Positions 794 to 21,969 of a stretch of DNA of 24,374 nt are shown here, one piece after another. Origin of the DNA: Lachnospiraceae bacterium (GTDB lineage Bacteria; Bacillota_A; Clostridia; Lachnospirales; Lachnospiraceae). Position numbers and translations under genes: made by a program. The notes under the pieces are model-generated. The model made no database searches, was not told where the DNA came from, and worked only from the letters and a program-made list of their open reading frames with translations. The number at the start of each line of letters is the position of its first letter. Within the stretch, counting starts at the first letter, position 1. Where the stretch lies: contig JAGADM010000047.1 in NCBI GenBank assembly GCA_017613595.1, forward strand, positions 1-24,374, given 5' to 3'.

Positions 794-2359
794 TTATTTC
801 GTACCGGTATTGGTACCGGTGGAAATTCGTTTGATCCATTTTTCGCTCTTTAAGCGGAAATAGCACCAGATCGCCTTGATGATCTGGTCGGACTTGAGAC
901 AGATGTAAATCCAGAACGGATCGAGGTGCAGTACGAATCCGGCAATGATTCCGAGCGGAAGAGCGACTGCCCAGAGAAAAATGTTATCCATGAGCATAAG
1001 CATCTTCGTATCGCCGCCGCCGCGGAGCACGCCCTTGGTCATAATGCTGTTGGTCGCCTGGAAGATCAGTATGATACTGATCGCGATCATGAGCTGGTTC
1101 GCGAGATTCTTCGTATTGGCGCTGACATCATATCCGCCGATAACGGGATTCTTGATGAGTAAAATGATACCCGCGGCGAGAAGTCCGAGCGCAAGGCCGA
1201 GACCGAAGAACATCCAGCCCTGTTTCATCGTCTTCTTGCGGTCGCCCTGACCGAGTGTCTGGCCGGTTACGATAGCGCCCGCCTGACATACGCCCTGGAT
1301 GCCGACCGTACTCATCTGCTGCGTTACGGCAGTGATGGAGTTGGCCGATGTAAACTCGGAACCGAGACGTCCGATTACCATCGCTACGGAGTTGTTTCCG
1401 AGTGCGAGGATACCGTCGCTGATCAGTACCGGAATACTGATGCGGATGTATTCCTTAAGAAGCGAACCGGTCTTCATGAATATATCTTTGATCCGGAAAC
1501 GGATACGCTTATCGACAACAAGCAGATAACCGACGATCATAACCGCCTCGAATACACGCGCGATCAGAGTGCCGAGGGCGGCACCCTTAACTTCCATACG
1601 CGGCGCGCCGAAATGACCGAAGATAAATGCGTAGTTTCCGAGAAGGTTTACAAACAGTGCGCCGATCGAAACGAAGAGCGGGAACAATGCCTGTCCGACG
1701 CTTCGAAGGACGATCGTTACGGTAAGGGAAGTGCCTAAGAAGAAATAGGTGATGACCGAATACCGCAGATAATCGGCGCCGCGGCGGACAATCTCGAGGT
1801 TGTTCGCATTTTCCGCGGCAACGCGTTCAAAGTCAGCGGCGGATACGGTCGTGAGGTCAACCTGTTTCTTCGCGTACATTTTCATAATAGTTTCGGGCAT
1901 TATGAACGTTGCAACCGCGAAGAGCGTGGCGAGGAGCAGCGTGAGACGGAGCATCAGGCATACCGTCTGCTTGAGTGCCACGGAAGCGTCATCTTTATCA
2001 TCCAAGTCGGGTGATACCATGATTGCTTCGTTGCGATGCCGTTGCTTCATACCCCAATAGCGGGATACCAGTACCGAGGCACCCATGCCGAGACCCATAC
2101 AGAAGATATGGTAGATTCCGATGAAGGTGTTCGAAAGCGATACGGCAGCGAGAGACTGCTCGCTGGCAAGCTCCGCCGCGGTCTTTCCGAGCGCGCCTAC
2201 CGATACGGCGTCGTAAACGCCGCCTGAGCTTCCGATGCTTCCGACCATGATCGTGTCGAGCATGTTAACGCCGACGGCAATCAGGCTCTGCAGCGCGATC
2301 GGGATGGCGAGTATTATTACCTTTTTATAGAAAGCGGGATCTTTTTGGAATAATTTCAT
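794..2359 (-). CDS. MATE family efflux transporter
   Basis: A 521-residue polytopic membrane protein of the multidrug and toxic compound extrusion family, which exports organic cations or drugs using a sodium or proton gradient. Family signs are the N-terminal AIPIALQSLIAVGVNMLDTI helix, the GLGMGASVLVSRYWG segment, the paired second half starting near ISIPVLISDGILALGNNSVA, and GVLRGGGDTK near the C-terminus. The length is a little above the usual 440-480 residues; an insert of about 20-30 polar residues (QRHRNEAIMVSPDLDDKDDA) lies in one cytoplasmic loop. The start follows AAAGGATG, with a sigma-A-type promoter upstream at 2419-2447. The natural substrate cannot be told from the sequence, and the position beside glycosidase genes does not by itself imply a sugar role. 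Confidence 0.93.
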   Translation of the reverse strand: MKLFQKDPAFYKKVIILAIPIALQSLIAVGVNMLDTIMVGSIGSSGGVYDAVSVGALGKTAAELASEQSLAAVSLSNTFIGIYHIFCMGLGMGASVLVSRYWGMKQRHRNEAIMVSPDLDDKDDASVALKQTVCLMLRLTLLLATLFAVATFIMPETIMKMYAKKQVDLTTVSAADFERVAAENANNLEIVRRGADYLRYSVITYFFLGTSLTVTIVLRSVGQALFPLFVSIGALFVNLLGNYAFIFGHFGAPRMEVKGAALGTLIARVFEAVMIVGYLLVVDKRIRFRIKDIFMKTGSLLKEYIRISIPVLISDGILALGNNSVAMVIGRLGSEFTSANSITAVTQQMSTVGIQGVCQAGAIVTGQTLGQGDRKKTMKQGWMFFGLGLALGLLAAGIILLIKNPVIGGYDVSANTKNLANQLMIAISIILIFQATNSIMTKGVLRGGGDTKMLMLMDNIFLWAVALPLGIIAGFVLHLDPFWIYICLKSDQIIKAIWCYFRLKSEKWIKRISTGTNTGTK

Positions 2360-2418
2360 GAGACTACATCCTTTTTTGACTGATCAGCCGGCATTCAGCA
2401 CAAACCGGTTCAGATTAG

Positions 2419-2447
2419 AGTATACCATTTCATTTTCCGTAAAACAA
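2419..2447 (-). promoter_or_regulatory. sigma-A-type promoter for the MATE gene
   Basis: Read on the minus strand: TTGTTT, 17-nt spacer, TATACT with an upstream TG (extended -10). It points toward the MATE start about 60 nt downstream. The -35 is weak (TTG only); the extended -10 compensates. Confidence 0.55.
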
Positions 2448-2506
2448 CCGAAAAATGGCTAATAAATTTAAAGTATCTAAGCTTTTTTTGAAGAAAATGT
2501 ATTATA

Positions 2507-2561
2507 TTATCCGATTCCCCGACAGACTTATCCGATTCGCTCTTTGGAGGTTGTCCGACAA
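2507..2561 (+). promoter_or_regulatory. direct-repeat operator candidate upstream of the GH10 xylanase
   Basis: The 11-mer TTATCCGATTC occurs exactly twice, at 2507-2517 and 2528-2538, a period of 21 bp or two DNA turns. A weaker copy with an internal palindrome, TTGTCCGACAA (2551-2561), overlaps the -35 of the promoter. Tandem sites on one DNA face just upstream of -35 are the usual arrangement for an AraC-type activator. That reading is inference; the repeats themselves are directly visible. Confidence 0.5.
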
Positions 2562-2579
2562 TCCCGTTTCTGCTATAAT
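2551..2579 (+). promoter_or_regulatory. promoter of the GH10-SIMPL-GH3-NTPase operon
   Basis: TTGTCC, 17-nt spacer, perfect TATAAT at 2574-2579. The predicted transcription start is near 2586, giving a short leader before the ATG at 2610. The poor -35 suits an activator-dependent promoter. Confidence 0.7.
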
Positions 2580-2609
2580 GAAAAGAAAAATGCGCGAAAG
2601 GATTTACCC

Positions 2610-4691
2610 ATGGAGAAGACTGTATTGAAGGAAGTTTACCGGGATTATTTCAAGATCGGAACGGCCGTGGAACGCATCAATGAGCGGTTCACGAAGAACG
2701 AGATCGGAAACCCCGAGAAAGAGGCGCTGATCGCACGCGAATTCTCAAGCATGACATGCGCGAACGAACTGAAACCCGCATATAATATGGGATGGAACAG
2801 CCCTGAGGCAAAGGAGGACTACCTCCCGTTCGTGATCAATCCGAACGCCAAGGCAATGTTAGACTGGGCCAAGACGAACGGCGTGAAGCTGCGCGGACAC
2901 GTTATGGTATGGCACAGCCAGTGCGCACAGGAGGCGTTCTGCAAAGGCTATAAGCCGGTAACGATCCCGACCGATCCGGAGAAATTGAAGGAGAACCCGC
3001 GTCTTAAGTTCTTCGAGAAGCTCGACCCGGTCTGCTTTGTCGACCGCGACACGATGCTGAAGCGTCTTAAGAGCTACATCCGCTCCCTCGTTGAATATAT
3101 GTACAAGGCCGGCTACGCATCGACGATTTACGCGTGGGACGTTGTAAATGAGGCGATTGAGCTTGCCGACAAGACCGAGACCGGTCTTCGTAACAGCTAC
3201 TGGTATCAGGTGATCGGTGACGATTTCATCTACTGGGCATTCCGTTTCGCGAACGATGCCGTAGCGGATTATTCCGCGCAGTACGCGAAGGAGTACGGAA
3301 TTGACGTGGGCGACAGGAACGCTCTGAAGACGATTCAGCCTGTTTTATTCTATAATGACTACAATGAGTGGCAGCCCGATAAGAAAGCGGCGATTATCGC
3401 GAATCTGAAGCGTGAGGGGCACGGTCACGGCAGCGTGATCGGCGAAGGACTCCTCGGCGGTATCGGCATGCAGGGACACATTTCCGACAACAACGATATC
3501 GATGAGTATATCGCGGCGCTCCGCGAATACGATTCGATTGCTCCCGAAGTACACATTACGGAGCTCGACGTCAAATGCACCTGCACGAACATCAACCGCG
3601 AGTACTATCAGGCAGTGTTCTATAAGGAATTCTTCGAGCGTCTGATCGCCGAGAAGAAGGCAGGCGTGAACCTGACGAGCGTAACAATCTGGGGCCTTAC
3701 CGACGACAATTCCTGGATCCGCGGCGCGGACCCGCTGCTGTTCCGTAAGGACCTTTCGAAGAAGAAGTCCTACGACGCTTTGATCTATGCCGTAACGGGC
3801 GGAGATCTCGGCGAGCCCGAATATGTCGCAAGAGACATGTCGAAGAAGGTTTACGACTTCGAGACGCCTGCGGGCGAAGAGCCGAAGAAGCCCGACACAT
3901 ACGGTTTCAAGATGAAGGGCTTCGGTGAATGCGTTCTGACGCAGGAGAAGGTGCACAGCGGAACAACCGCACTTACGACGACACCCCGCTTTGCCGACTG
4001 GATGGGAATCACGTGCGATATTTCGGATTTCCTCGGCCAGACGATCCGGATCGACGCGTGGGTATACAGTGAGGCAAAGGAGATCCGTCTCGGTCTTGAT
4101 ATCGAGGACGTGTTCCCGGTAATCGCGACCGTAGAGGGCGGCAGCGAGTGGAAGAAGATTTCCGCTTCCTACAAGGTGCCTTCCGACCGTCATTCGATCC
4201 GTCTGTTCTTCAGCACGAAGGATGAGAATCCGGGCCATGTAAGTCCGCTTTTCCTCGATGATGTAACGATCGAACTGATCGGGCAGGAGGAAAGCTTCGA
4301 AGAGGAGACCAATATCGCGGCAATCCGCGGCGCAGGCCATCTGCCGTTCCTGTATGTTACGGATAAGGAATCCGTCGACGGAGCAGGGCACGCCCTCTGC
4401 GTAACGAGACAGGAGAAGGACGCGACCGTGAAACTCGACGTGAGCGCCTATATCGGCTATACGGTTGATGTCTCCATGTATGTTAAGACCGCCGATCATG
4501 AAATCCGTGCGGGACTTGACGGCACTGAGCCTGTTGTGTTTGCTAAAGTAAGTTCTACCGCGGTAGAATGGAAGGAGATCGAGATGCGTGTATCCATTCC
4601 GGATACGTTATTGTCGGCGGAGCTGTTCATTGAGACCGACGGCAACGCGGATTTCTTCGTGGACGACGTATTTATCCGTCCCGTACAGTAG
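2610..4691 (+). CDS. GH10 endo-beta-1,4-xylanase with two C-terminal CBM-like modules
   Basis: A 693-residue retaining xylanase. Residues about 10-395 form the GH10 barrel. It shows MVWHSQ, acid/base Glu181 in WDVVNEAIE, nucleophile Glu318 in VHITELDVK, and a late ITIWGLTDDNSW-type segment (here VTIWGLTDDNSW). Residues about 405-560 and 570-693 are two beta-rich modules, ending in FLDDVTIEL and FFVDDVFIRP, that resemble the CBM4/9/22 group. No signal peptide is present: the protein starts MEKTVLKEVYRDYF. The reading frame is open from 2544, but the ATG at 2610 is chosen because GAAAGGAT precedes it and the promoter at 2551-2579 would lie inside the longer form. It is first in an operon with SIMPL and GH3 genes. 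It is probably a cytoplasmic enzyme for imported xylo-oligosaccharides, although binding modules on such an enzyme are unusual. Confidence 0.95.
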   Translation: MEKTVLKEVYRDYFKIGTAVERINERFTKNEIGNPEKEALIAREFSSMTCANELKPAYNMGWNSPEAKEDYLPFVINPNAKAMLDWAKTNGVKLRGHVMVWHSQCAQEAFCKGYKPVTIPTDPEKLKENPRLKFFEKLDPVCFVDRDTMLKRLKSYIRSLVEYMYKAGYASTIYAWDVVNEAIELADKTETGLRNSYWYQVIGDDFIYWAFRFANDAVADYSAQYAKEYGIDVGDRNALKTIQPVLFYNDYNEWQPDKKAAIIANLKREGHGHGSVIGEGLLGGIGMQGHISDNNDIDEYIAALREYDSIAPEVHITELDVKCTCTNINREYYQAVFYKEFFERLIAEKKAGVNLTSVTIWGLTDDNSWIRGADPLLFRKDLSKKKSYDALIYAVTGGDLGEPEYVARDMSKKVYDFETPAGEEPKKPDTYGFKMKGFGECVLTQEKVHSGTTALTTTPRFADWMGITCDISDFLGQTIRIDAWVYSEAKEIRLGLDIEDVFPVIATVEGGSEWKKISASYKVPSDRHSIRLFFSTKDENPGHVSPLFLDDVTIELIGQEESFEEETNIAAIRGAGHLPFLYVTDKESVDGAGHALCVTRQEKDATVKLDVSAYIGYTVDVSMYVKTADHEIRAGLDGTEPVVFAKVSSTAVEWKEIEMRVSIPDTLLSAELFIETDGNADFFVDDVFIRPVQ

Positions 4692-4715
4692 AAAAAGATA
4701 AGTTTGCGGTTGTAT

Positions 4716-4741
4716 TTGCCGGCATCATGAGGTGCCGGCAA
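4716..4741 (+). other. intergenic hairpin between GH10 and SIMPL genes
   Basis: Perfect 9-bp inverted repeat TTGCCGGCA / TGCCGGCAA with an 8-nt loop. No T-run follows, so it is not a typical terminator. It ends about 27 nt before the SIMPL start and could stabilise or delimit the upstream xylanase message within the operon. Confidence 0.6.
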
Positions 4742-4767
4742 TGCTTGCGGTAAGAAAGGAGTATGCC

Positions 4768-5427
4768 ATGCGTGAGATGAGAGTTACCGGAGTGGGAAGA
4801 CTGTCGGTAAAGCCGGACCGGATCCGTCTGATGATGAATCTGTCGGATACGAAGAAGGACTATGAAAAGGCTTTGGAAGCGTCTTCCGAGATGAGCAGCA
4901 AGTTGCAGAAGGTGTTCACCGGATGCGGATTTCAGGAGGATGATCTGAAGACGACTCGTTTTTCGGTGGACGCGGAATACGAAGGCTACACCGACAAGAA
5001 CGGAAACTGGAAGCAGAGATTCAAGGGCTATCGCTTTGAACAGTCCTTAAAGATTGAGTTTCCGTCGGACAACGAACGGCTCGGGACGGTGCTTTACGCG
5101 CTTGCAAAAAGCGGCGTGAAGACGGAATTCCGGATCCAGTATACGGTTTCCGATCTGGAAAAATGCCGCAACGAACTGCTCGGCAAGGCGGTTGCGGACG
5201 CAAAGGAGAAGGCGGCGGTTCTTGCCGCGGCAAGCGGCGTGAAGCTCGGCGATATCATGCGGATCGATTATTCCTTCGGCAACGCGGATATCTGCTCGGA
5301 GCCCGTAATGCTTCGGAGTATGGCAATGGACTGCCAGGCGAAGGAGGAAGGTTCATACGGATTCAATATGGTCGCGGACGACATCGAAGCGGATGACAAT
5401 GTGACGATTTGTTTTGAAATCATGTAA
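4768..5427 (+). CDS. SIMPL domain (DUF541) protein
   Basis: A 219-residue protein that is one SIMPL/DUF541 domain from end to end, starting MREMRVTGVGRLSVKPDRIR. The family pattern of alternating strands is visible, with YRFEQSLKIEF in the middle, and the long helix KAVADAKEKAAVLAAASGVKL followed by GDIMRIDY is typical. Family members are usually secreted or periplasmic and linked to oxidative stress or oligomeric scaffolds, but the biochemical role is unsettled. This one has no signal peptide. The ATG at 4768 is preferred over upstream starts because AGAAAGGAG precedes it at 7 nt. It sits 24 nt before the GH3 gene and therefore belongs to the glycosidase operon, with no known reason for that link. 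Confidence 0.88.
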   Translation: MREMRVTGVGRLSVKPDRIRLMMNLSDTKKDYEKALEASSEMSSKLQKVFTGCGFQEDDLKTTRFSVDAEYEGYTDKNGNWKQRFKGYRFEQSLKIEFPSDNERLGTVLYALAKSGVKTEFRIQYTVSDLEKCRNELLGKAVADAKEKAAVLAAASGVKLGDIMRIDYSFGNADICSEPVMLRSMAMDCQAKEEGSYGFNMVADDIEADDNVTICFEIM

Positions 5428-5451
5428 GCGTATATTAAGGAGGATTTTAGA

Positions 5452-7896
5452 ATGGACAGATGGGCGAGAGCGAAGTATTGCCCGATTCTCCCGGTGGGAG
5501 AGAACGGAACGTTTGTGACGGGAAGCGCGGAACACAGGGCACTTTCCAAAAAAGCCGCGAAGGACGGCATGGTGCTTCTTGAGAACAACGGAGCGCTGCC
5601 GCTTCGAAAGGGAGCGAAGATTGCGCTCCTCGGCAAAGGAACCTTTGACTACGTGCGAGGAGGCGGCGGAAGCGGCGACGTATACTGCGCGTATTCGAAG
5701 AACATTTATGACGGCTTTAAGGAAGTCGGCGGACATGAGATTTATGAACCGCTCTGCGACTTCTACCGTGAGTATGTTAAGAAGCAGTACGCGGAGGGCT
5801 ACGCGCCCGGTATGACGATCGAGCCCGAAGTGCCCGACAGGCTGCTGCATGAGGCGTCCTCATTTGCCGATATCGCGGTTGTGTCGATCAGCCGTTTCAG
5901 CGGCGAGGGATGGGACCGCTCGGAGATTTCCTTCTATGAGGACGAGGTTAACCCGTGGATCATCGGACAGGATGATACCGAGTCTTTCGAGAACCTCTGC
6001 ATCCCGATGAACGAGCTTTCGGCAAGGATCTTCCCGCGCAGGGATTTCTATCTTTCCGACGCGGAGGCAAAGATGATCGCCCTTGCGAGAAAGACTTTCC
6101 CGACCGTAATTGTTCTCCTGAATGTCGGCGGAATGATGGACCTCAGCTTCCTTCGGAAGAATGAAATCGACGCGGCTTTGTATCTGTGGTCGCCCGGTAT
6201 GGAAGGCGGTACGGCGGCAGCGGAGCTTCTGTGCGGAATCGGAAGTCCGTGCGGCAAACTGCCGGATACGTTCGCGGATTCGCTTGACGCGTATCCGTCG
6301 ACGGCAACGTTCCATGAAAACGGCCGCTATGTACCCTATGATGAAGATATCTATGTCGGCTATCGCTATTTTGAGACGGTTCCCGGAGCGGCGGAGCATG
6401 TTGTATATCCGTTCGGCTACGGAATGTCTTATACGACGTTCGGCGTGCGGGAAGCAAGCACTGAAATTGAGGACGATACCGTTACGGTTTCCGTCTTCGT
6501 GAAGAATACAGGCAATGTCACGGGCCGTGAGATCCTGCAGCTTTATGTCGAGGCGCCGCAGGGCAAACTCGGCAAAGCGGGACGGACGCTGATCGCATTT
6601 GCCAAAACGCAGGAACTGAAGCCCGGCGATGAGGAACTGCTTACGTTAAAGGCGCCGGTTGAGTCGTTTGCAAGCTTTGACGATCTCGGAAAGATCGCCG
6701 CGGACTGCTTCGTGCTGGAGGCGGGTACCTACCGCTTCGCACTCGGTACATCCGTACGCGACGTGACCGTGCTTGATAAGACGTTTGCGGTTGAGAAGGA
6801 CCGCATTACCGAGCGGCTTTCGGACCGCCTCGCTCCGACCTCTCTTGCGGAAAGACTCTGTGCCGACGGAACGAAGGAAGCGCTTCCGACAGGGGAGCCT
6901 TACGACTCCGATTATGACGCAATCGGGCGGGTTGCAAAAGGCGCGGATTCGGGGTATACTCCTTATGTGAGATCCCGCGAGCAGCATCTCATTAACCGTC
7001 CTTACCGCGAAGGCATTACGCTTCCGAAGGAGATGGGCGGCAAAGGAACGATGGAAGGTTTTCTTTCCGCCTTGACGGACGATGAACTGATCCATCTGCT
7101 CGGCGGACAGCCCAATACGGGTATGGCAAACACGTTCGGCATGGGCAATCTGCCCGAGGCCGGAATTCCGTCGTTTATGACTGCGGACGGACCTGCGGGT
7201 GTACGTCTCGGCGCGTACTGCGGCGTGTACACGACGTGCTGGCCGTGCGCGACACTGCTTGCTTCCACGTGGGATGAGCAGCTTCTTACCCGCATCGGCG
7301 CGGCTGCGGGAGCGGAACTGAAGGAGAGCAACATCTACATGTGGCTCGCTCCGGCGGTTAACATCCACCGCAATCCGATGTGCGGACGTAATTTTGAATA
7401 TTTCTCCGAGGACCCGCTTCTTGCCGGCAAGCTGGCAGCAGCCGAGGTGCGCGGAATCCAGACGAACAAGGTTGCCGCGACCGTCAAGCATTTTGCGTGC
7501 AACAACAAGGAAACGAACCGTATCTACTGCGACGCGAGAGTGTCGAAACGGGCACTTCGTGAGATTTATCTCAAAGTATTCGAAATCATTGTAAAAGAAT
7601 CGGATCCCTGGTGCGTAATGAGTTCCTACAACCTGATCAATGGGCGCAGATGCTCGGAGTCGGAGGAACTTCTGACCGGAATCCTCAGAGACGAATGGGG
7701 CTTTAACGGCCTTGTGATGACCGACTGGTGGAACCGCGGCGAACACTACAAGGAAGTGCTTGCGGGTAACGACGTGAAGATGCCGGCGGGCTTCCCGGAC
7801 CGTCTCAGAAAGGCAATGGAGATCGGCGTTCTGAAGCGTGAGGATCTGCTTCGAAGCGCCAAGCGTCTCATCGAGCTGTTCCTGAAATTCGAATAA
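5452..7896 (+). CDS. domain-permuted GH3 beta-glycosidase (beta-glucosidase/beta-xylosidase)
   Basis: An 814-residue GH3 enzyme whose usual domain order is reversed. Residues about 25-265 are the GH3 C-terminal alpha/beta sandwich (MVLLENNGALPLRKG; Glu152 in FSGEGWDRSE is the acid/base candidate). Residues about 340-415 are the fibronectin-III-like domain (VKNTGNVTGREILQLYV). The catalytic barrel comes last, residues about 525-814, with TADGPAGVR, GRNFEYFSEDP, Lys679-His680 in VKHFACNN and the nucleophile Asp758 in LVMTDWW. This swapped order is established for beta-glucosidases of Ruminococcus albus and Butyrivibrio fibrisolvens. There is no signal peptide, so it is cytoplasmic. AGGAGG precedes the ATG. 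Operon context with GH10 suggests xylobiose or xylo-oligosaccharide cleavage, but beta-glucosidase activity is equally possible. Confidence 0.94.
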   Translation: MDRWARAKYCPILPVGENGTFVTGSAEHRALSKKAAKDGMVLLENNGALPLRKGAKIALLGKGTFDYVRGGGGSGDVYCAYSKNIYDGFKEVGGHEIYEPLCDFYREYVKKQYAEGYAPGMTIEPEVPDRLLHEASSFADIAVVSISRFSGEGWDRSEISFYEDEVNPWIIGQDDTESFENLCIPMNELSARIFPRRDFYLSDAEAKMIALARKTFPTVIVLLNVGGMMDLSFLRKNEIDAALYLWSPGMEGGTAAAELLCGIGSPCGKLPDTFADSLDAYPSTATFHENGRYVPYDEDIYVGYRYFETVPGAAEHVVYPFGYGMSYTTFGVREASTEIEDDTVTVSVFVKNTGNVTGREILQLYVEAPQGKLGKAGRTLIAFAKTQELKPGDEELLTLKAPVESFASFDDLGKIAADCFVLEAGTYRFALGTSVRDVTVLDKTFAVEKDRITERLSDRLAPTSLAERLCADGTKEALPTGEPYDSDYDAIGRVAKGADSGYTPYVRSREQHLINRPYREGITLPKEMGGKGTMEGFLSALTDDELIHLLGGQPNTGMANTFGMGNLPEAGIPSFMTADGPAGVRLGAYCGVYTTCWPCATLLASTWDEQLLTRIGAAAGAELKESNIYMWLAPAVNIHRNPMCGRNFEYFSEDPLLAGKLAAAEVRGIQTNKVAATVKHFACNNKETNRIYCDARVSKRALREIYLKVFEIIVKESDPWCVMSSYNLINGRRCSESEELLTGILRDEWGFNGLVMTDWWNRGEHYKEVLAGNDVKMPAGFPDRLRKAMEIGVLKREDLLRSAKRLIELFLKFE

Positions 7897-8638: not shown

Positions 8639-8667
8639 TTGCTATAACGGAAGAGTTATGCTATACT
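8639..8667 (+). promoter_or_regulatory. promoter of the cobalamin-riboswitch operon
   Basis: TTGCTA (8639-8644), 17-nt spacer, TATACT (8662-8667). The predicted start is near 8674, just upstream of the riboswitch P1 stem. A TTGACA at 8670-8675 has no good -10 at 17 nt and would start transcription inside P1, so it is disfavoured. Confidence 0.65.
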
Positions 8668-8695
8668 CTTTGACAAATCCTATATCGATATGGAA

Positions 8696-8871
8696 GATAC
8701 GGTTTGAAAGTTGTAAAGATGAGTAGATTAATAGGGAATCCGGTTCGAATCCGGAACAACCGCCATTACTGTATTTGACGAAGAAGACGCGGATGCCATT
8801 GGGGTCATCCCCGAGAAGGCGCGCCTTGACGCAGGAACTGCTATATCATGAGTCAGGAGACCTGCCGTATC
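8696..8871 (+). ncRNA. cobalamin (adenosylcobalamin-type) riboswitch aptamer
   Basis: Diagnostic conserved segments occur in order: AGGGAA at 8733-8738, GGTTCGAATCCGG at 8742-8754 in place of the usual GGTGAAAATCC-like element, CCGCC then ACTGTA at 8760-8773, and the B12-box end AGTCAGGAGACCTGCC at 8851-8866. A perfect 7-bp P1 stem, GATACGG (8696-8702) with CCGTATC (8865-8871), closes the element. The conserved ACTGT is separated from GCC by an extra ATT. This RNA class binds cobalamin and lowers expression of uptake or synthesis genes; here it heads an ECF transporter operon. The rest of the 529-nt gap between genes (8593-9121) holds terminators, the promoter and the expression platform. Confidence 0.93.
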
Positions 8872-8890
8872 TTTTCAGGTAATCACGCTT

Positions 8891-8988
8891 GGGCAATGGG
8901 AGAGTGCAGCCGATATATCGCCGGAATGGCTTTGGTGTACATCCTTAAGATGGCCCAGGGCTTTGTTTCATGCGGTTATCAGTTGCCC
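8891..8988 (+). promoter_or_regulatory. possible antiterminator pairing of the cobalamin riboswitch
   Basis: GGGCAA at 8891-8896 is complementary to TTGCCC at 8983-8988, which includes the 5' arm of the terminator at 8985-9013. The two pairings exclude each other, as expected for a transcription-attenuating riboswitch. The pairing is short and was found by eye, so it is tentative. Confidence 0.35.
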
Positions 8989-9013
8989 TTCACGAAAAGT
9001 GAGGGGCTTTTTT
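8985..9013 (+). terminator. riboswitch-controlled intrinsic terminator
   Basis: GCCCTTCAC pairs with GTGAGGGGC (one T-G wobble) around a GAAAA loop, followed by six T. It lies between the aptamer and the first gene, so it is most likely the ligand-dependent off switch. Confidence 0.88.
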
Positions 9014-9063
9014 ATGTCAGATTGCCTGCAATGAGAGGGCAGATGCGGCAGCTGACGGTCAAA

Positions 9064-9079
9064 GGTTCCCGTCGGAACC
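9064..9079 (+). other. leader hairpin before the EcfT gene
   Basis: Perfect 6-bp inverted repeat GGTTCC / GGAACC with loop CGTC, 27 nt upstream of the ribosome binding site of the T component. No T-run follows. It could be a leader structure. Confidence 0.35.
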
Positions 9080-9121
9080 GCGCAGCGGCTGCTTATATCG
9101 GAGTCGAAAGGAGGAATGCAG

Positions 9122-9997
9122 ATGGCTTACGAACGGATACATCCGGCAGTGCTTGCCGTATACTTCCTTTCCGTCACGATACCGGCGATGTTTTCCCTGA
9201 ACCCGGTATTCCACATCGCTGCATTTGCCGGCGCAGTACTGTTCCTCATTCTGACGGAGCCGGAACTGCCGAAGGCAAGGACCGTCATTTGGATGTCGTT
9301 TCTGTTCCTGGCGGTCGTCATCATAAACCCGATATTCAATCATCGCGGACAGACAGAACTGTTCTTCTTAAACGGTCACGCGATCACACTCGAATCAATC
9401 TGCTACGGCGTACGGAACGCGCTGTGTGTCACCTCCGTACTGCTGTGGTGCCGGATATTCAACCGTATGGTAAGCAGCGAAAAGCTGCTGGCGCTTTTAG
9501 GGAAGCATTTTCCGAAGACGGCGCTTCTGATATCCTCGTCGCTGCGGCTTGTTCCGCTTCTGAGGCACCGCGCGGAAGAGATGCGCGACACACAGAAGGA
9601 ACTCGGCCTTTACGGCAACGGAGAAATGCCCGATCGGCTTTCGGGCGGCGCCAGAGTGTTCTCCATGCTTGTCACCTGGTCATTAGACCACGCGACTGCC
9701 GTGAGTGCCTCAATGAAGGCGCGCGGGTACGGACTCAAAGGAAGAACGACGTATTCCATCTACCGTTTCGGACGATTGGACGCGATACGTATGGCACTGC
9801 TTCTCGTCATTGATGCCGCGATTATCGGGATCATGGCTTCGGGGCGGATGGCGTTCAGCTTCTATCCGGCGCTCACCATGGAGCGCGGAACGTTCACGAC
9901 GATCGGAATCGTTTTATACTGCCTGCTCGTTTTTACGGCGGCATTCACGGAAGGAAAGAATCGGATACAATGGAATTATTACAGGTCGAAAATCTGA
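9122..9997 (+). CDS. ecfT: ECF transporter T component (CbiQ-type, energy-coupling transmembrane protein)
   Basis: A 291-residue integral membrane protein that couples the ECF ATPases to the substrate-binding S component. Membrane segments are visible at about residues 10-45, 55-72, 92-112, 223-240 and 258-275. The cytoplasmic coupling region carries the conserved pair of T-component motifs: SSLRLVPLLRHRAEEM (about 139-154) and the Ala-Arg-Gly motif SMKARGYG (197-204), which docks in the ATPase grooves. The ATG at 9122 is preferred over 9116 because AAAGGAGG lies 7 nt upstream. It is the first gene after the cobalamin riboswitch and overlaps the ATPase gene by 28 nt. Vitamin specificity is set by the S component and inferred here from the riboswitch. 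Confidence 0.92.
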   Translation: MAYERIHPAVLAVYFLSVTIPAMFSLNPVFHIAAFAGAVLFLILTEPELPKARTVIWMSFLFLAVVIINPIFNHRGQTELFFLNGHAITLESICYGVRNALCVTSVLLWCRIFNRMVSSEKLLALLGKHFPKTALLISSSLRLVPLLRHRAEEMRDTQKELGLYGNGEMPDRLSGGARVFSMLVTWSLDHATAVSASMKARGYGLKGRTTYSIYRFGRLDAIRMALLLVIDAAIIGIMASGRMAFSFYPALTMERGTFTTIGIVLYCLLVFTAAFTEGKNRIQWNYYRSKI

Positions 9998-11640
9998 CAT
10001 TTTCCTATCCCGAGAGCGGTAGAGCGGCGCTGAAGGATGTTTCCTTTTCCCTGGCGGAAGGAGGCTTTACGATTGTCTGCGGGCCTTCCGGATGCGGCAA
10101 ATCGACCCTTCTCAAGCTTCTGAAGAAGGAAATCGCGCCTTACGGAGAGATTCACGGGACGCGCCGGTATCAGGGTGTCTCTTACGAAGACCTTGAAGCG
10201 CGTGTGTCCGGATCGCAGATCGGTTATCTCGCGCAGGATCCGGACAGCCAGATCGTGATGGATACGGTGTGGCAGGAGCTTGCTTTCGGCGCGGAGAACC
10301 TCGGCATGAAGCAGGAGGAAATCCGTTCGCGTGTGGCGGAGATGGCGGCGTATTTCGGCATTGAAAGCTGGTTTCACAAGAAGACGGAGCAGTTATCCGG
10401 CGGACAGAAGCAGCTGCTGAATCTCGCTTCGGTCATGACGCTGGAGCCCCGCGTACTGCTTCTTGATGAGCCGACGGCACAACTTGATCCGATTGCTGCG
10501 GGCGACTTCTTCGCGATGATCGGGCGGCTTCACCGCGAACTCGGCGTGACCGTCCTGATCGCGGAACACCGGCTTGAGGAAATTCTTCCGATGGCAGACC
10601 GCGTGCTGTTTCTGGACGGCGGTGAGATGCGTTATGACGGTTCGGCTGACGGAATCGGCACGTTCCTTCGAAGTGTGTCCGAAGGTATGGCAGCAGGACT
10701 TCCCGCGGCGGTACGCCTGTACGGGCTTCTCGGCGAGACCGGCCCGACCCCGCTTTCCGTTGTGGAAGGAAGACAAATGATAAAGCGCTACGCGAATACG
10801 ATCCGCGATATCGAGGCGGCCCTGTACGAAACCGGGAAGAATCCGGCGGCGGAGATCCGCGGGGGATGGTTCCGGTACGGCCGGAACGGACAGGACGTAC
10901 TGCGCGATGCGGCTTTGACGATATACGAAGGCGAGCACTATTGTCTGTTCGGCGGCAACGGCAGCGGAAAGACGACACTGCTTTCCGTAATCTGCGGAGT
11001 CCGTCGTCTGTACGCCGGCTCGGTAAAGCTGTTCGGAAAGCCGCTAAAGGCATTTCGGGACGGTGAACGCAACCGCGGTGTAACGGCGATGCTTCCGCAG
11101 GACCCGAAGGAGGTCTTCGTGTGCGATACGGTCCGGGAGGACTGGGAGCTTGCCTGTAAGACAATGGGTATCAACGGGAAGGAACGGGACGAAGCCGTAG
11201 CGGCAATGGCCGCGAGACTCGGAACCGAAGAACTTCTTACGAGACATCCGTACGATCTGAGCGGCGGTGAGCAGCAGAAGGCGGCGCTCGGAAAAGTGCT
11301 TCTACTGAACCCGAAGCTATTGCTTCTCGATGAGCCGACCAAAGGACTCGATGCCGCTTACAAGGCGGAACTGTACCGCATTCTGAAAGCCGTGCAGGCA
11401 GCCGGAACGACAATCCTTACGGTGACGCATGACGCGGAATTTGCCGCGGAGTGCGCGGACCGCGCGGGACTTTTCTTCGACGGGGCGGTGGCTGTGTCCG
11501 GACCGGTCAGGGATGTATTTTCCGCGAACGCATTTTATACAACCGCCGCGTGCAGGATCGCGCGCGGGTATTACGGGAATCCGATCACCGTTTCGGAAAT
11601 CGCGGAGCTGTGTCTTAAGAACGGGAGGGTGACGTCATGA
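9970..11640 (+). CDS. ecfA: ECF transporter fused double ATPase (EcfA-EcfA')
   Basis: A 556-residue protein with two ABC ATPase domains in one chain. Domain 1 has Walker A GPSGCGKST (38-46), signature LSGGQ (142-146) and Walker B LLLDEP (163-168). Domain 2 has Walker A GGNGSGKTT (328-336), signature LSGGEQ (430-435) and Walker B LLLLDEP (450-456), followed by the H-loop THD. Many ECF systems use two separate ATPases of about 280 residues each; the fused form is known in dedicated (group I) ECF transporters. Both sites look intact. The gene starts inside the end of the T gene, with GGAAGGAAAG as ribosome binding site, and its TGA overlaps the ATG of the S component by 4 nt. It powers uptake of the presumed cobalamin substrate. 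Confidence 0.94.
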   Translation: MELLQVENLTFSYPESGRAALKDVSFSLAEGGFTIVCGPSGCGKSTLLKLLKKEIAPYGEIHGTRRYQGVSYEDLEARVSGSQIGYLAQDPDSQIVMDTVWQELAFGAENLGMKQEEIRSRVAEMAAYFGIESWFHKKTEQLSGGQKQLLNLASVMTLEPRVLLLDEPTAQLDPIAAGDFFAMIGRLHRELGVTVLIAEHRLEEILPMADRVLFLDGGEMRYDGSADGIGTFLRSVSEGMAAGLPAAVRLYGLLGETGPTPLSVVEGRQMIKRYANTIRDIEAALYETGKNPAAEIRGGWFRYGRNGQDVLRDAALTIYEGEHYCLFGGNGSGKTTLLSVICGVRRLYAGSVKLFGKPLKAFRDGERNRGVTAMLPQDPKEVFVCDTVREDWELACKTMGINGKERDEAVAAMAARLGTEELLTRHPYDLSGGEQQKAALGKVLLLNPKLLLLDEPTKGLDAAYKAELYRILKAVQAAGTTILTVTHDAEFAAECADRAGLFFDGAVAVSGPVRDVFSANAFYTTAACRIARGYYGNPITVSEIAELCLKNGRVTS

Positions 11641-12317
11641 AGAAAGCCGTCACGATCATCCTTCTCTGTGTATTGATCCCGGTGCTTGTAATCGGGGGTG
11701 CAATCGTGTTCCGGGAAAGGTTCTACGCATGGCTTGCGGTCCTTGTCGCGGTTCTTTCGTGTCTGCCGCTTCTCTATGCGTTTGAGCGGCGAGACAGTAC
11801 GGCCAAGGAACTGATGGTATTGGCGGTTATGATCGCGCTGTCGGTGATCGGCCGCGTCGTATTTGCCGCGATTCCCGGATTCAAGCCGGTTACGGCGATT
11901 ACGATCATCGTTGCCTTAAGCTTCGGCGGCGAGGCCGGCTTCCTTGTCGGCTCGCTTTCCGCAGCCGTGTCGAACTTCTATTTCGGACACGGACCGTGGA
12001 CGCCTTTTCAGATGTTCGCGTGGGGCATCATCGGGCTGATCGCGGGACTTCTTCGAAAACCGCTTCGAAAGAGCAAGGTTCTTCTGTGCATCTACGGAGC
12101 GCTCGCGGGAGTCGCCTTTTCGCTGACGATGGATGTCTGGACAGTGCTCTGGGCGGAGGGCACATTTGTCTTAAAGGGCTATCTTGCCGCGATTGCGGCG
12201 GCGCTTCCGCTGACGGTTGAATACGCCGTTTCCAATGTTGTTTTTCTCCTTCTTCTTGCCGGACCGGTGGGAAAGAAGTTAGAAAGAATAAAAAAGAAAG
12301 AAGGTTTGTTTCAATGA
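11637..12317 (+). CDS. ECF transporter S component, probably cobalamin/corrinoid-specific
   Basis: A 226-residue hydrophobic protein with about six to seven membrane helices, the size of an ECF substrate-binding S component plus one extra N-terminal helix. The segment AITIIVALSFGGEAGFLVGS, followed by AAVSNFYFGHGPWTPFQMFA and WGIIGLIAGLL, is characteristic of the vitamin S-component superfamily. The charged tail KKLERIKKKE is cytoplasmic. The start overlaps the ATPase stop (ATGA) and the stop overlaps the next start (ATGA), implying translational coupling. Specificity for cobalamin or a corrinoid precursor is inferred from the riboswitch and the transcobalamin-like neighbours; the sequence alone would also allow another vitamin. 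Confidence 0.88.
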   Translation: MKKAVTIILLCVLIPVLVIGGAIVFRERFYAWLAVLVAVLSCLPLLYAFERRDSTAKELMVLAVMIALSVIGRVVFAAIPGFKPVTAITIIVALSFGGEAGFLVGSLSAAVSNFYFGHGPWTPFQMFAWGIIGLIAGLLRKPLRKSKVLLCIYGALAGVAFSLTMDVWTVLWAEGTFVLKGYLAAIAAALPLTVEYAVSNVVFLLLLAGPVGKKLERIKKKEGLFQ

Positions 12318-13204
12318 AAAAACTGATGATTCTTGTATTGTCGGCAGCGATGCTCCTCGGTCTGAGCGGCGTTGCGCTTGCGGACGATACGAAGGTAAAT
12401 GTGTCGATCGCCGATAACAACGGCGAGGCGGTTCTCGTGCAGAAGCCCGTTACCGTTACGGATGTTGACGGCGACGGAACGCTTACGGTAGGCGATGCTC
12501 TCGTATGCGCTCATGAGGTGTACTTCGAAGGCGGAGCCGAGGCCGGTATCAAGACCTCCATGGGAACCTACGGTCTGCAGCTTGACCTGCTGTGGGGCTA
12601 TGACAACGGCACCGGCTACGGCTACCTTGTCAACAACGCTTTCAGCATGGGCCTCGGTGACCCGGTGAAGGACGGCGATTATGTATACGCATACATCTAC
12701 ACTGACCTTACGAACTGGTCCGACACTTACTGCTTCTTCGATCAGAACACCGTTTCCGCAGAGGAAGGCGGCAAGGTTACCCTTACCCTTTCCGCAGCCG
12801 GCTACGCAGCGGATTATTCGCAGCTGAACAGCCCCGTGGAAGGCGCTAAGATTCTGATTGACGGTAAGGATGCCGGTGTTGTAACCGATGCGGAAGGTAA
12901 GGCGGAGATTACGCTTGCCGATGCCGGTGAGCATGTGATCAGCGCTTCGAAGGACGGCATGGTTATGGTTCCGCCGCTTGCCGTAGCAACGGTAGAGAAG
13001 AAGGAAGAGCCGACTCCCGAGCCGACCGAGGCACCCACGGTTACGCCTACTCCCGAGCAGAAGAACGAGACTGCGGCTCCCGCGGACAATACGACGAGCG
13101 AAAACAGCAGGAACGCTTTCATGGTCATCATGATCGCTCTCGGTGTTGTTATGGCTGCGGCTATCGTTGTAGGTGTTGTTGTAGCGGTTAAGAAAAAGAA
13201 CTGA
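12314..13204 (+). CDS. membrane-anchored DUF4430-like surface protein of the B12 operon
   Basis: A 296-residue exported protein. Residues 1-23 are a signal peptide ending ALA before DD. Residues about 25-148 resemble DUF4430 (transcobalamin C-terminal-like): a NGTGYGYLVNNAFS strand pair is followed by DPVKDGDYVYAYIY. A loop DVDGDGTLTVGDAL (50-63) looks like an EF-hand/dockerin calcium loop. Residues about 153-217 form an Ig-like or carboxypeptidase-regulatory-like domain (VEGAKILIDGKDAGVVTDAE). A Pro/Thr/Glu linker (about 228-262) leads to one membrane helix (267-292) and a KKKN tail, so the protein is tethered to the outer face of the membrane. It overlaps the S-component gene by 4 nt. A role in corrinoid capture or handover to the ECF transporter is inferred. 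Confidence 0.82.
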   Translation: MKKLMILVLSAAMLLGLSGVALADDTKVNVSIADNNGEAVLVQKPVTVTDVDGDGTLTVGDALVCAHEVYFEGGAEAGIKTSMGTYGLQLDLLWGYDNGTGYGYLVNNAFSMGLGDPVKDGDYVYAYIYTDLTNWSDTYCFFDQNTVSAEEGGKVTLTLSAAGYAADYSQLNSPVEGAKILIDGKDAGVVTDAEGKAEITLADAGEHVISASKDGMVMVPPLAVATVEKKEEPTPEPTEAPTVTPTPEQKNETAAPADNTTSENSRNAFMVIMIALGVVMAAAIVVGVVVAVKKKN

Positions 13205-13214
13205 GTGATATTTC

Positions 13215-14867
13215 ATGAAACGTAACGGATGGATGAAAACCGTATTATGCGGCCTGTGCGCGGTTCTGCTTTCGCTGCTGTTAATTCCGGCAGCGGGAGC
13301 GGAATCGCCGTCCGATCCGTCCGGAGAATACGAGGCGGGAATCCTTTCCTATCTTTCGGAGACTTCGGGAGCGGATTCGGTGCAGGCATGGCTTGACCGG
13401 GACGCGGAGGAACTGTTCAAAACTCCCGCGGAGTGGTATTTTCTTGCGCTTTATCAGGGCGGAAAATACGACTTCACAAGCTTTGCGCAGCAGTACCGCA
13501 GGCGTCTGCCCGACGGGCAGAGTAAGCTTGCCGGAGCTACCTGGCTGAACCGGATCATGACCGCCTGGCTTCTCGGGATGGAAACCGATGCGGACGAGGT
13601 CCGGCAGCATACCGCTGCCGGCGACATCATGAGCCTTGTGTACGGTCTTCATTATTCGACGGTTTCCAAAGAAGCCTTCGTCAGCCCCGCTTCGCTTACC
13701 GAAAGGCAGTGTGAAGACGGCGGATGGAGCCTCAAAGGAGATTTCGGAGATCCGGACGTTACATCGATGGTGCTTACGGCGCTCGCGCCGTATTATGAGA
13801 CCGATGAAGCGGTGAAGGCTGCCGCGGACAGAGGCGTAGAGTACCTTTCAAAAAAGCAGCTGCCGAACGGCGGCTACAGCAGTTTCGGAACGGATAACTG
13901 CGAGAGCGCGAGCCAGGTTGTCATTGCGCTTTGTTCGCTCGGAATCAATCCAATGACCGACGCGAGGTTTCAGAAGGAAGGCGGCAATCCGCTTACGACG
14001 ATGGGCCGCTTCCGCTGTGAGAACGGCACATTTGCCCATAAAGAAGGCGGAACCGGAGCGGAGATCACAACCGCCGAAGTTCTGTGCGCCCTTACCTCCT
14101 ACAGACGTTTCCTTACGGGAAAGACGCCTCTTTATCAGGCGGAACGGAGTGATGTCTGGGGGACGGATCCGAAGGAAGATGACCGGAAGCCCGATGATAA
14201 CGGGAACAAGCCGGAAGACGGTTCCTCCGTATCCGCAGAGAGTACTCCGGGAGGAAAGAACGCGGGGAAAGATTCCCGGGAGGCGGAGAAAGGCTTCTTC
14301 GGAGCGGAGCCGTACAAGTTCATTGTTTCGGGCGTTATCGTACTGCTCCTTGCGGTGTCGATTATTCTTTTGAAAGTCCGGAAACGGCTTACGAAGAAGA
14401 ACGGGCTTTTCGCCGCCGGACTTGCGGCACTTCTCATTATCCTGACGTTCGCAACCCGTTTCGAGTCGGTCGGAAAGCACTATACCGGCGGAGAGATGCC
14501 GGACGCAATCGGAAGCGTGACTCTGACGATCCGCTGCGATACGATCGCCGGCGAGCAGGGGGCTCCGAAGGACAGTGTGATCCTTCCGGTTACGGAGGTG
14601 AAGATTGCCGACGGTGATACCGCATTTGACGTGATCGTAAGAGCGGCAAAGGAGCACCGCATCGCGATGGATTACACGGGCAGCGGAGGCTCGGTTTACG
14701 TTAAGGGAATCGCCGGTCTGTATGAATTTGCATACGGAAACATGTCCGGCTGGATTTACCTCGTGAACGGCGAGATCATGGCGGTCGGATGCGGTCAGGC
14801 CGAAGTGAAGCCGGGAGACGAGATATCCTTTCAGTATACGAAAAATCTGGGGGAAGATTTAAAATAA
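13215..14867 (+). CDS. transcobalamin/intrinsic-factor-like protein (alpha-toroid + DUF4430) with internal membrane hairpin
   Basis: A 550-residue exported protein. It has a signal peptide (1-29, ends AGA). Residues about 36-305 form an alpha/alpha toroid of the prenyltransferase/intrinsic-factor type, with repeats CEDGGWSLKGDFGDPDVTS, QLPNGGYSSFGTDNCESASQ and CENGTFAHKEGGTGAEITTA. A polar linker (about 305-366) follows. Two membrane helices (368-388 and 397-414) are separated by the basic turn VRKRLTKKN. Residues about 433-545 are a DUF4430 domain (ADGDTAFDVIVRAAKEH, then GWIYLVNGE and VKPGDEISFQYT). Mammalian intrinsic factor and transcobalamin pair the same two domains and hold cobalamin between them. 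By the positive-inside rule the basic turn is cytoplasmic and both domains face out. It is the last gene of the riboswitch operon, 10 nt after its neighbour. Cobalamin binding is inferred. Confidence 0.86.
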   Translation: MKRNGWMKTVLCGLCAVLLSLLLIPAAGAESPSDPSGEYEAGILSYLSETSGADSVQAWLDRDAEELFKTPAEWYFLALYQGGKYDFTSFAQQYRRRLPDGQSKLAGATWLNRIMTAWLLGMETDADEVRQHTAAGDIMSLVYGLHYSTVSKEAFVSPASLTERQCEDGGWSLKGDFGDPDVTSMVLTALAPYYETDEAVKAAADRGVEYLSKKQLPNGGYSSFGTDNCESASQVVIALCSLGINPMTDARFQKEGGNPLTTMGRFRCENGTFAHKEGGTGAEITTAEVLCALTSYRRFLTGKTPLYQAERSDVWGTDPKEDDRKPDDNGNKPEDGSSVSAESTPGGKNAGKDSREAEKGFFGAEPYKFIVSGVIVLLLAVSIILLKVRKRLTKKNGLFAAGLAALLIILTFATRFESVGKHYTGGEMPDAIGSVTLTIRCDTIAGEQGAPKDSVILPVTEVKIADGDTAFDVIVRAAKEHRIAMDYTGSGGSVYVKGIAGLYEFAYGNMSGWIYLVNGEIMAVGCGQAEVKPGDEISFQYTKNLGEDLK

Positions 14868-14874
14868 TAATCTT

Positions 14875-14914
14875 AAAAGGGAGGAAGCTTTTGCGGCGTC
14901 CTCCTTTTCTTTTT
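14875..14914 (+). terminator. intrinsic terminator of the B12 operon
   Basis: AAAAGG(G)AGGA pairs with TCCTCCTTTT with one bulged G, followed by CTTTTT. It begins 8 nt after the stop codon of the transcobalamin-like gene. Confidence 0.75.
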
Positions 14915-21564: not shown

Positions 21565-21687
21565 GCAGTCAGGTAGATAGACAGACCAACAAGTTGTGTG
21601 TATTTCATGGCTTGTCGGTTTGTTTTGTTTTAAGGGGTTTTCTTAAGACCGTTGATGTGCAGATTTTTATGAAGGAGGTACTGGTTC
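21565..21687 (+). promoter_or_regulatory. long structured 5' leader of the cold-shock gene
   Basis: About 120 nt of untranslated leader separates the predicted transcription start from the ATG. ACCAACAAG (from about 21587) can pair with CTTGTCGGT (from about 21612) with one mismatch, and TTAAG / CTTAA forms a second small stem near 21632-21649. A perfect AAGGAGGT (21672-21679) precedes the ATG by 8 nt. Long leaders that refold at low temperature control cspA-type genes in other bacteria; the same role here is inferred. Confidence 0.5.
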
Positions 21688-21897
21688 ATGACTGGTACAG
21701 TAAAGTGGTTCAACGCTCAGAAGGGTTATGGCTTCATTAGCAATGATGAGGGCGGCGAGGATGTATTCGTACATTTTTCCGCTATCCAGAGCGAGGGCTT
21801 CAAGACTCTTGAAGAGGGTCAGAAGGTATCTTTCGAGACCGAGCAGGATCCCAAGGATTCCAAGAAGCTCAGAGCGGTTAACGTTGTTGCTATGTAA
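21688..21897 (+). CDS. csp: cold-shock protein (CspA family)
   Basis: A 69-residue single cold-shock domain, the full size of the family. It binds single-stranded RNA and DNA and acts as an RNA chaperone. The start [17 protein letters not shown] contains RNP1 (KGYGFI), followed by RNP2 (VFVHF) and the usual [10 protein letters not shown] strand. The gene is monocistronic, with its own promoter, a long leader and a strong terminator. Confidence 0.97.
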
Positions 21898-21930
21898 TTT
21901 ATAATTGCATCGGACAGTACGCGAACACAA

Positions 21931-21969
21931 AAAGACCGGGGAGTTCTCAATGAGAGCTCCCCGGTTTAT
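21931..21969. terminator. bidirectional terminator between csp and vanY
   Basis: Stem ACCGGGGAG / CTCCCCGGT (21935-21965), with inner TCTC / GAGA pairing. In the plus direction it is followed by TTATT and ends csp. In the minus direction it is followed by CTTTTT and ends the convergent vanY gene. Confidence 0.88.

Follow-up and report, generated by a model that had tools for sequence, protein, structure and literature searches.

This work concerns a 24,374-nucleotide (nt) stretch of contig JAGADM010000047.1 from a Lachnospiraceae bacterium (hereafter, the window), in which a cobalamin riboswitch is followed by five genes for an energy-coupling factor (ECF) transporter and two surface proteins (which we call P4 and P5), forming an operon that probably serves to capture scarce B12-like molecules in the cell's surroundings. 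Along the forward strand, the order is promoter-like site, riboswitch, terminator-like hairpin, EcfT (T), fused EcfA-EcfA' (A-A'), S component (S), P4 and P5:

8639..8667, forward: promoter-like site TTGCTA-17-TATACT directly 5' of the riboswitch (consensus scan; called by position)
8683..8883, forward: cobalamin riboswitch aptamer RF00174 (cmscan, full model, 94.5 bits, E 1.2e-22)
8985..9007, forward: intrinsic-terminator-like hairpin, then TTTTTT, the presumed expression platform (site scan)
9116..9997, forward: EcfT, energy-coupling transmembrane subunit (PF02361 CbiQ, 32.1 bits, cut-off 25)
9970..11640, forward: EcfA-EcfA' fusion, two ATPase domains in one protein (two ABC_tran stretches)
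11637..12317, forward: S component, CbrT-related (PF07155, 47.7 bits; best PDB match 6fnp_A, E 1.4e-10)
12314..13204, forward: P4, with signal sequence, beta domain, immunoglobulin (Ig)-like domain and C-terminal membrane anchor (AlphaFold2 model, mean confidence pLDDT 85.2; structural domain matches)
12356..12709, forward: P4 beta domain, residues 15-132, with a predicted transcobalamin/haptocorrin beta-domain fold
13103..13198, forward: predicted P4 C-terminal transmembrane helix, residues 264-295 (secondary structure of the model; hydrophobic, basic end)
13215..14867, forward: P5, with toroid, membrane hairpin and beta domain (AlphaFold2 model, pLDDT 84.4; Foldseek)
13302..14123, forward: P5 alpha/alpha toroid, residues 30-303 (model and Foldseek), extracellular as judged from topology
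14310..14453, forward: predicted P5 transmembrane hairpin, residues 366-413 (model helices 366-388 and 394-413), with the short basic loop KRLTKKNG
14502..14864, forward: P5 beta domain, residues 430-550, DUF4430 (PF14478, 60.5 bits at residues 467-543)

The genes overlap by 28, 4 and 4 nt along the operon, with a 10-nt gap between P4 and P5, and the scans and coordinates agree with an earlier note, made from the letters alone, that had described the riboswitch, terminator, T, A-A', S, two surface proteins and overlaps. The full-length RF00174 match lies well above its curated gathering cut-off of 31.5 bits. Since 0.6 promoter-like and 0.7 terminator-like sites are expected by chance in the scanned stretch, these two calls rest on position, the promoter-like site standing right before the aptamer and the hairpin between the aptamer and the first gene. 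A 321-residue open reading frame (ORF) at 8848-9813, which overlaps both the riboswitch and EcfT and matches no Pfam family, was dismissed.

An ECF transporter with a CbrT-related S component

The ECF module in the operon is complete, comprising EcfT, the two ATPases (A and A', fused) and an S component. Judged by their sequences, neither EcfT nor the ATPases depart from what is usual for ECF subunits; the best NCBIfam matches of the fused A-A' are ECF ATPase models (below their cut-offs). The S component is, on the same grounds, nearest to the cobalamin S component CbrT, and corrinoid transport by it is putative. When the single sequence was searched against the PDB, the best match was 6fnp_A, with 4hzu_S, a different S component, coming next at E 0.014; with a profile of 23 S components (alignment A3, made from the window and 22 of the 65 loci carrying an S gene), 6fnp_A alone was matched at E<=0.01, with E 1.8e-15, so that CbrT ranks above the other solved S components. 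The 6FNP structure is ECF-CbrT, which carries cobalamin and cobinamide (PMC5997447, used here, as are all papers cited, through its accessible excerpts). Additionally, in two relatives (loci L026 and L029, see below) S is fused behind the two ATPase domains, and this A-A'-S triple fusion ties the S component to this ECF motor.

The operon could, nevertheless, import something else, whether cobalt, a precursor of the corrins such as cobinamide or an unrelated vitamin, with riboswitch control being merely part of the B12 economy. EcfT does match the CbiQ family, in C. difficile the cobalt ECF operon cbiMNQO has a cobalamin riboswitch in front of it (PMC11477304), cobinamide is accepted by ECF-CbrT itself (PMC5997447), and Pfam places S in the riboflavin S family, with riboflavin and folate S models appearing below cut-off in NCBIfam. 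We take the riboflavin label as a general S-component resemblance; the CbiM model did not match S in the Pfam and NCBIfam scans, and CbrT is the only solved relative of the S family at E 0.01. A metal ion, moreover, would need no intrinsic-factor-like clamp. Overall, we consider the import of another compound distinctly improbable.

Predicted structures of the two surface proteins

P5 combines an alpha/alpha toroid and a beta domain in a single chain (according to the predicted model and PF14478), and rows 1-15 of its Foldseek search were, every one, haptocorrin, transcobalamin or intrinsic factor, with 9-12% identity in the structural alignments. The earlier note had proposed a comparison of predicted structures with human intrinsic factor, and the models bear it out: that of P5 has the intrinsic-factor/transcobalamin fold and that of P4 has the beta domain.

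Intrinsic factor and transcobalamin are soluble secreted carriers without membrane segments. P5 departs from them in this respect, given that two hydrophobic segments lie between the toroid and the beta domain in 42/42 rows of alignment A1 (the window's P5 together with 41 of 64 listed P5 proteins, one of the 64 being the window's own), while an N-terminal hydrophobic segment is present in 41 of these rows; we therefore file P5 as a membrane relative, and not as a transcobalamin. The positive-inside rule, by which basic loops are cytoplasmic, places the basic loop of P5 in the cytoplasm and both domains outside, and P5 would thus act like an intrinsic factor whose middle part anchors it in the membrane. 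A sequence search of the PDB with the DUF4430 domain of P5 alone returned only antibody chains, and the BtuF-type domain Peripla_BP_2 (PF01497) was absent from P4 and P5 in a Pfam scan to E 0.1.

In the case of P4, the beta-domain fold comes from the predicted model and from domain-level structural matches. A plain Foldseek search with the whole protein gave mostly Ig-like structures among the best 50, with transcobalamin absent from these, and the beta domain emerged in a second, domain-level look. The protein lacks the DUF4430 signature, with no Pfam match and no profile match to the P5 beta domain (in the comparison of the P4 and P5 profiles, the signal peptides alone were aligned), and its sequence profile gave one meaningless match to the solved structures (E 0.64). 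A pectate-lyase chain, the best single-sequence PDB match of P4 (E 0.0017), was rejected; it covers the Ig-like part (residues 154-249). Homologues of P4 were aligned (A2) from 39 of 120 listed, out of 425 found, excluding two-domain forms of about 500 residues. The beta domain of P4 has a DVDGDGTLTVGDAL stretch resembling a calcium loop, and four of its homologues (P0103, P0107, P0117 and P0176) have precomputed dockerin or EF-hand Pfam labels. Other relatives (P0071 and P0105 were inspected) contain the beta-Ig unit twice, and in one locus two P4 genes stand in tandem 5' of P5 (L064:618-2246).

These two proteins might also do something other than feed the transporter: they could sense corrinoid, store it at the surface or obtain it from a further protein; alternatively, the toroid could be an enzyme that modifies it. 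The toroid profile of P5 indeed matches squalene-hopene and drimenyl cyclases, with D179, D181 and T183 invariant, and ECF-CbrT shows that an S component can do without a binding protein outside the cell (PMC5997447). However, P4 and P5 are tightly linked to T-A-S in two gene orders (see below), both share the same kind of beta domain, and the cytoplasmic part of P5 is a short basic loop with no domain in it, which makes a non-feeding role, in our view, quite unlikely.

Related loci, their riboswitches and their genomes

A genome-contig scan using the A1 patterns gave 548 confirmed stretches, of which the best constitute the 80 loci compared here; because they were found with these patterns, the loci favour full-length relatives. 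They are labelled mostly as Lachnospiraceae, Ruminococcus and unclassified Clostridia, many from the ruminant gut, and their gene order was established with profiles derived from them and from the window (the S profile being free of ATPase frames). Of the 80 loci, 63 have P4, P5, T and A together and 56 have all five genes; several loci run off the end of a contig, and an S gene fused to A does not enter the count. The genes are arranged either as T-A-S-P4-P5 (in the window and nine loci) or as P4-P5-T-A-S.

RF00174 was run against the genomes of all 80 loci and RF01689 (adenosylcobalamin class AdoCbl-II) against those of 41, the latter giving 17 matches at E 0.001, eight of them exceeding the cut-off. 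Sixty riboswitch stretches were compared letter by letter with the loci; 52 lie inside them, and eight, being on other contigs (in the genomes of L013, L015, L036, L047, L053, L075, L076 and L078), were dropped. Among the 72 loci having at least 600 nt ahead of the first gene, 48 have a verified cobalamin riboswitch (RF00174 or RF01689) overlapping this gene or at most 1.5 kb 5' of it (37 exceed the curated cut-off; the other 11 fall short of it, down to 22.2 bits). One of the remaining 24, L032, has a cobalamin riboswitch 5' of a P4 gene that is apart from P5; the region between the two (L032:6160-9944) contains Peripla_BP_2 (BtuF-type), DUF3842 and Na+/H+ antiporter genes. Direct scans of 13 of these 24 found an AdoCbl-II riboswitch in L013 (41 bits) and a weak match in L022 (25.2 bits, below cut-off). 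The other 11 directly scanned loci (L009, L010, L021, L023 and L080, at the gathering cut-off only; L004, L015, L033, L050, L056 and L058) showed no cobalamin riboswitch and, with all of Rfam, no riboswitch for another ligand upstream. The earlier note had named operons lying consistently under riboswitches for other ligands as evidence against its reading; instead, homologous operons are mostly found beneath cobalamin riboswitches (48/72), and none of the 11 lacking one has another kind upstream (0/11).

In L026 and L029, a second cobalamin riboswitch between P5 and T (L026:11669-11801 and L029:11692-11824), with the A-A'-S triple fusion behind it, puts both halves of the cluster under corrinoid control. 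As isolated observations, L010 has a c-di-GMP-I riboswitch shortly 3' of P5 (L010:12184-12293), and on the reverse strand of L021 (6105-8448) two copies of a tRNA gene pair lie about 2.2 kb from each other, with equal scores, as if the stretch had been duplicated.

A less biased sample, 118 genomes taken evenly across the class to which the genome of L001 belongs, contained DUF4430 proteins in 61 genomes, 59 of which are outside the original 80. RF00174 is matched in 49 of these 59 genomes, and 40 of the 59 have a DUF4430 gene at most 8 kb downstream of it on the same strand, versus four with the mirror arrangement (49 of the 113 RF00174 riboswitches found take part in the downstream pairing). 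This difference indicates that the link between transcobalamin-type proteins and cobalamin riboswitches extends well past the nearest relatives of the window.

Thirty loci of this sample were analysed (the best-scoring DUF4430 place per genome, about 3.2 kb each, with L155 being the gene of L001 itself). A separate toroid gene lies directly 5' of the beta-domain gene in 13 of them, with gaps of -24 to 85 nt, whereas single toroid-plus-beta proteins of fewer than 634 residues are present in two (one being L001's own gene) and both domains are found in larger frames, of 754-1078 residues, in five more. Downstream of the beta gene, 11 of the 13 split loci carry EcfT and EcfA. All 13 split beta proteins start with a hydrophobic segment (signal peptide or anchor). 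Among the separate toroid genes, only that of L141 was seen to encode a C-terminal membrane segment; several others end in repeats that we take to resemble S-layer anchors. P5 can consequently be read as a head-to-tail fusion of toroid and beta proteins, its hairpin corresponding to two former anchors. We tentatively propose, at somewhat less than even odds, that Clostridia carry the animal B12 carrier as two anchored halves, which close over a corrinoid and load a CbrT-like S component, often under cobalamin riboswitches; that the gene order of this split form is toroid gene, beta-domain gene and ECF transporter; that fusion of the C-terminal anchor of the toroid to the N-terminal segment of the beta protein gave P5 in the Lachnospiraceae/Ruminococcus group; and that such proteins may preserve the bacterial ancestor of intrinsic factor and transcobalamin. 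The proposal is made slightly less likely by the fact that just six of the 13 split pairs have an RF00174 match (the only family scanned here) at most 8 kb upstream on the same strand.

Corrinoid metabolism was surveyed in 38 of the 80 genomes, chosen for long contigs; many are metagenome-assembled and possibly incomplete, making absences soft. A B12-binding domain is over cut-off in 37 of them and CbiC, a gene of corrin-ring biosynthesis, in eight, so that most look like B12 users dependent on import. For the 30 genomes that show no CbiC, cobalt alone would be of little use, a further point against a cobalt importer.

A permease of the FecCD family, to which BtuC belongs, is over cut-off in 20 of the 38 genomes, and the P4-P5-ECF operon is hence not always the sole candidate importer. 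Moreover, S components of the CbrT kind bind their substrate themselves (PMC5997447). With this and the 20 genomes in mind, P4 and P5 are better described as an added capture layer than, as the earlier note had put it, as standing in place of a BtuF-type binding protein. It is conceivable that a BtuFCD-type system is the main importer and the P4-P5-ECF operon an accessory. Four CbiC-retaining genomes (G017, G019, G040 and G051) have a canonical RF00174 riboswitch about 3.3 kb 5' of a FecCD gene (in G040 and G051 also about 0.1 kb behind CbiC), and their P4-P5-ECF operon has an AdoCbl-II aptamer instead (below cut-off in G019); such FecCD-riboswitch pairs are also present in G066. On the other hand, 18 of the 38 genomes have no FecCD above cut-off, and FecCD permeases are also used in iron and haem uptake, which leaves the accessory role unlikely.

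When the window was compared with its two nearest loci, the ratio of non-synonymous to synonymous substitution rates (dN/dS) was 0.16-0.28 for P4 and P5 and 0.08-0.13 for T, A and S (several dS values being above 1, i.e. saturated), and identity was 86-89% for S and 55-77% for P4 and P5. Positive selection on P4 and P5 was not seen in this comparison: they evolve faster than T, A and S, yet under purifying selection. A slow S and faster P4 and P5 would suit a fixed transporter with a surface facing changing neighbours.

Elsewhere in the window, the ORFs upstream of the operon (794-7896) presumably encode, from their translations, a MATE-like exporter, a GH10-like xylanase and a GH3-like glycosidase, labels that would fit a plant-fibre-degrading gut bacterium. 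The cspA thermoregulator RNA RF01766 is matched at 21588-21966 on the forward strand (85.9 bits, gathering cut-off 78), overlying what we take to be a cold-shock gene.

Proposed mechanism and comparison with known systems

Sequence and models show the riboswitch, the transporter parts, the kinship with CbrT, the predicted toroid and beta folds, the hydrophobic anchors and the conserved linkage of the genes. On this basis, we consider it probable (roughly 82%) that the operon is a corrinoid (vitamin B12-type) scavenging system of a Lachnospiraceae-like bacterium, controlled by a riboswitch, with capture by P5 and P4 and hand-off to a CbrT-like S component. The corrinoid capture-and-uptake system that the earlier note had suggested thus gains support from the fold of P5, the riboswitch survey and the CbrT-like S.

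In the mechanism we propose, plentiful cobalamin would favour the terminator and switch the operon off, and scarcity would allow transcription, as expected from the riboswitch class, in which high cobalamin means operon OFF (PMC11477304). P5 would sit in the membrane through its helical hairpin, with the toroid and the beta domain both extracellular and clamping a corrinoid in the manner of intrinsic factor and transcobalamin, while P4, a second beta domain on a stalk, may be a first captor, a partner or a lid. Together they would raise the local corrinoid concentration and pass the corrinoid to the CbrT-like S, which the T/A-A' motor would turn over, with ATP-driven release inside the cell, as inferred from ECF-CbrT. 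This makes the operon type a concrete, regulated and testable candidate. If binding holds, Gram-positive gut and rumen bacteria would compete for B12 using relatives of the host B12 carriers, and the bacterial origin suggested in 2007 for the animal proteins (PMC1796856) would gain a working genetic context.

The scavenging idea is not new: Burroughs et al. (2007) described transcobalamin-like SLBB proteins, including paralogous pairs, in CbiO/CbiQ operons of low-GC Gram-positives, and predicted B12 scavenging (PMC1796856). The present system shares with theirs the secreted toroid and beta-grasp proteins, often with a second SLBB paralogue, a CbiO-like ATPase and a CbiQ-like membrane protein; the riboswitch, the S component, the membrane hairpin and the split and fused forms are features here that the excerpts of that paper do not mention, and the beta domain of P4 is invisible to Pfam. 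Our literature search found no account joining toroid/beta proteins with cobalamin riboswitches and CbrT, which is weak evidence of absence, as most subscription papers lay outside the search. In C. difficile, cobalamin riboswitches precede cbiMNQO, a BtuCDF-like operon and a biosynthesis operon, none of the P4-P5-ECF type in the excerpts of PMC11477304.

With ECF-CbrT of Lactobacillus delbrueckii (PDB 6FNP) the operon shares a homologous S component and an EcfT-A-A' module. It differs in having A and A' joined in a single chain and two surface proteins in the operon, whereas cbrT of L. delbrueckii sits in an nrdJ-cbrS-cbrT-pduO cluster for which the excerpts of PMC5997447 describe no surface receptor. 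BtuG of Bacteroides is likewise a surface-associated B12 captor serving an importer, the role we suggest for P4 and P5, but it is a beta-propeller, another fold, and works with BtuB in the Gram-negative outer membrane (PMC6977713).

In predicted structure, P5 resembles the animal intrinsic factor, transcobalamin and haptocorrin, with which it shares the alpha/alpha toroid, the beta domain and, putatively, the cobalamin clamp between them. The animal carriers are soluble and their domains are connected by a soluble linker, whereas P5 has a membrane hairpin in this place.

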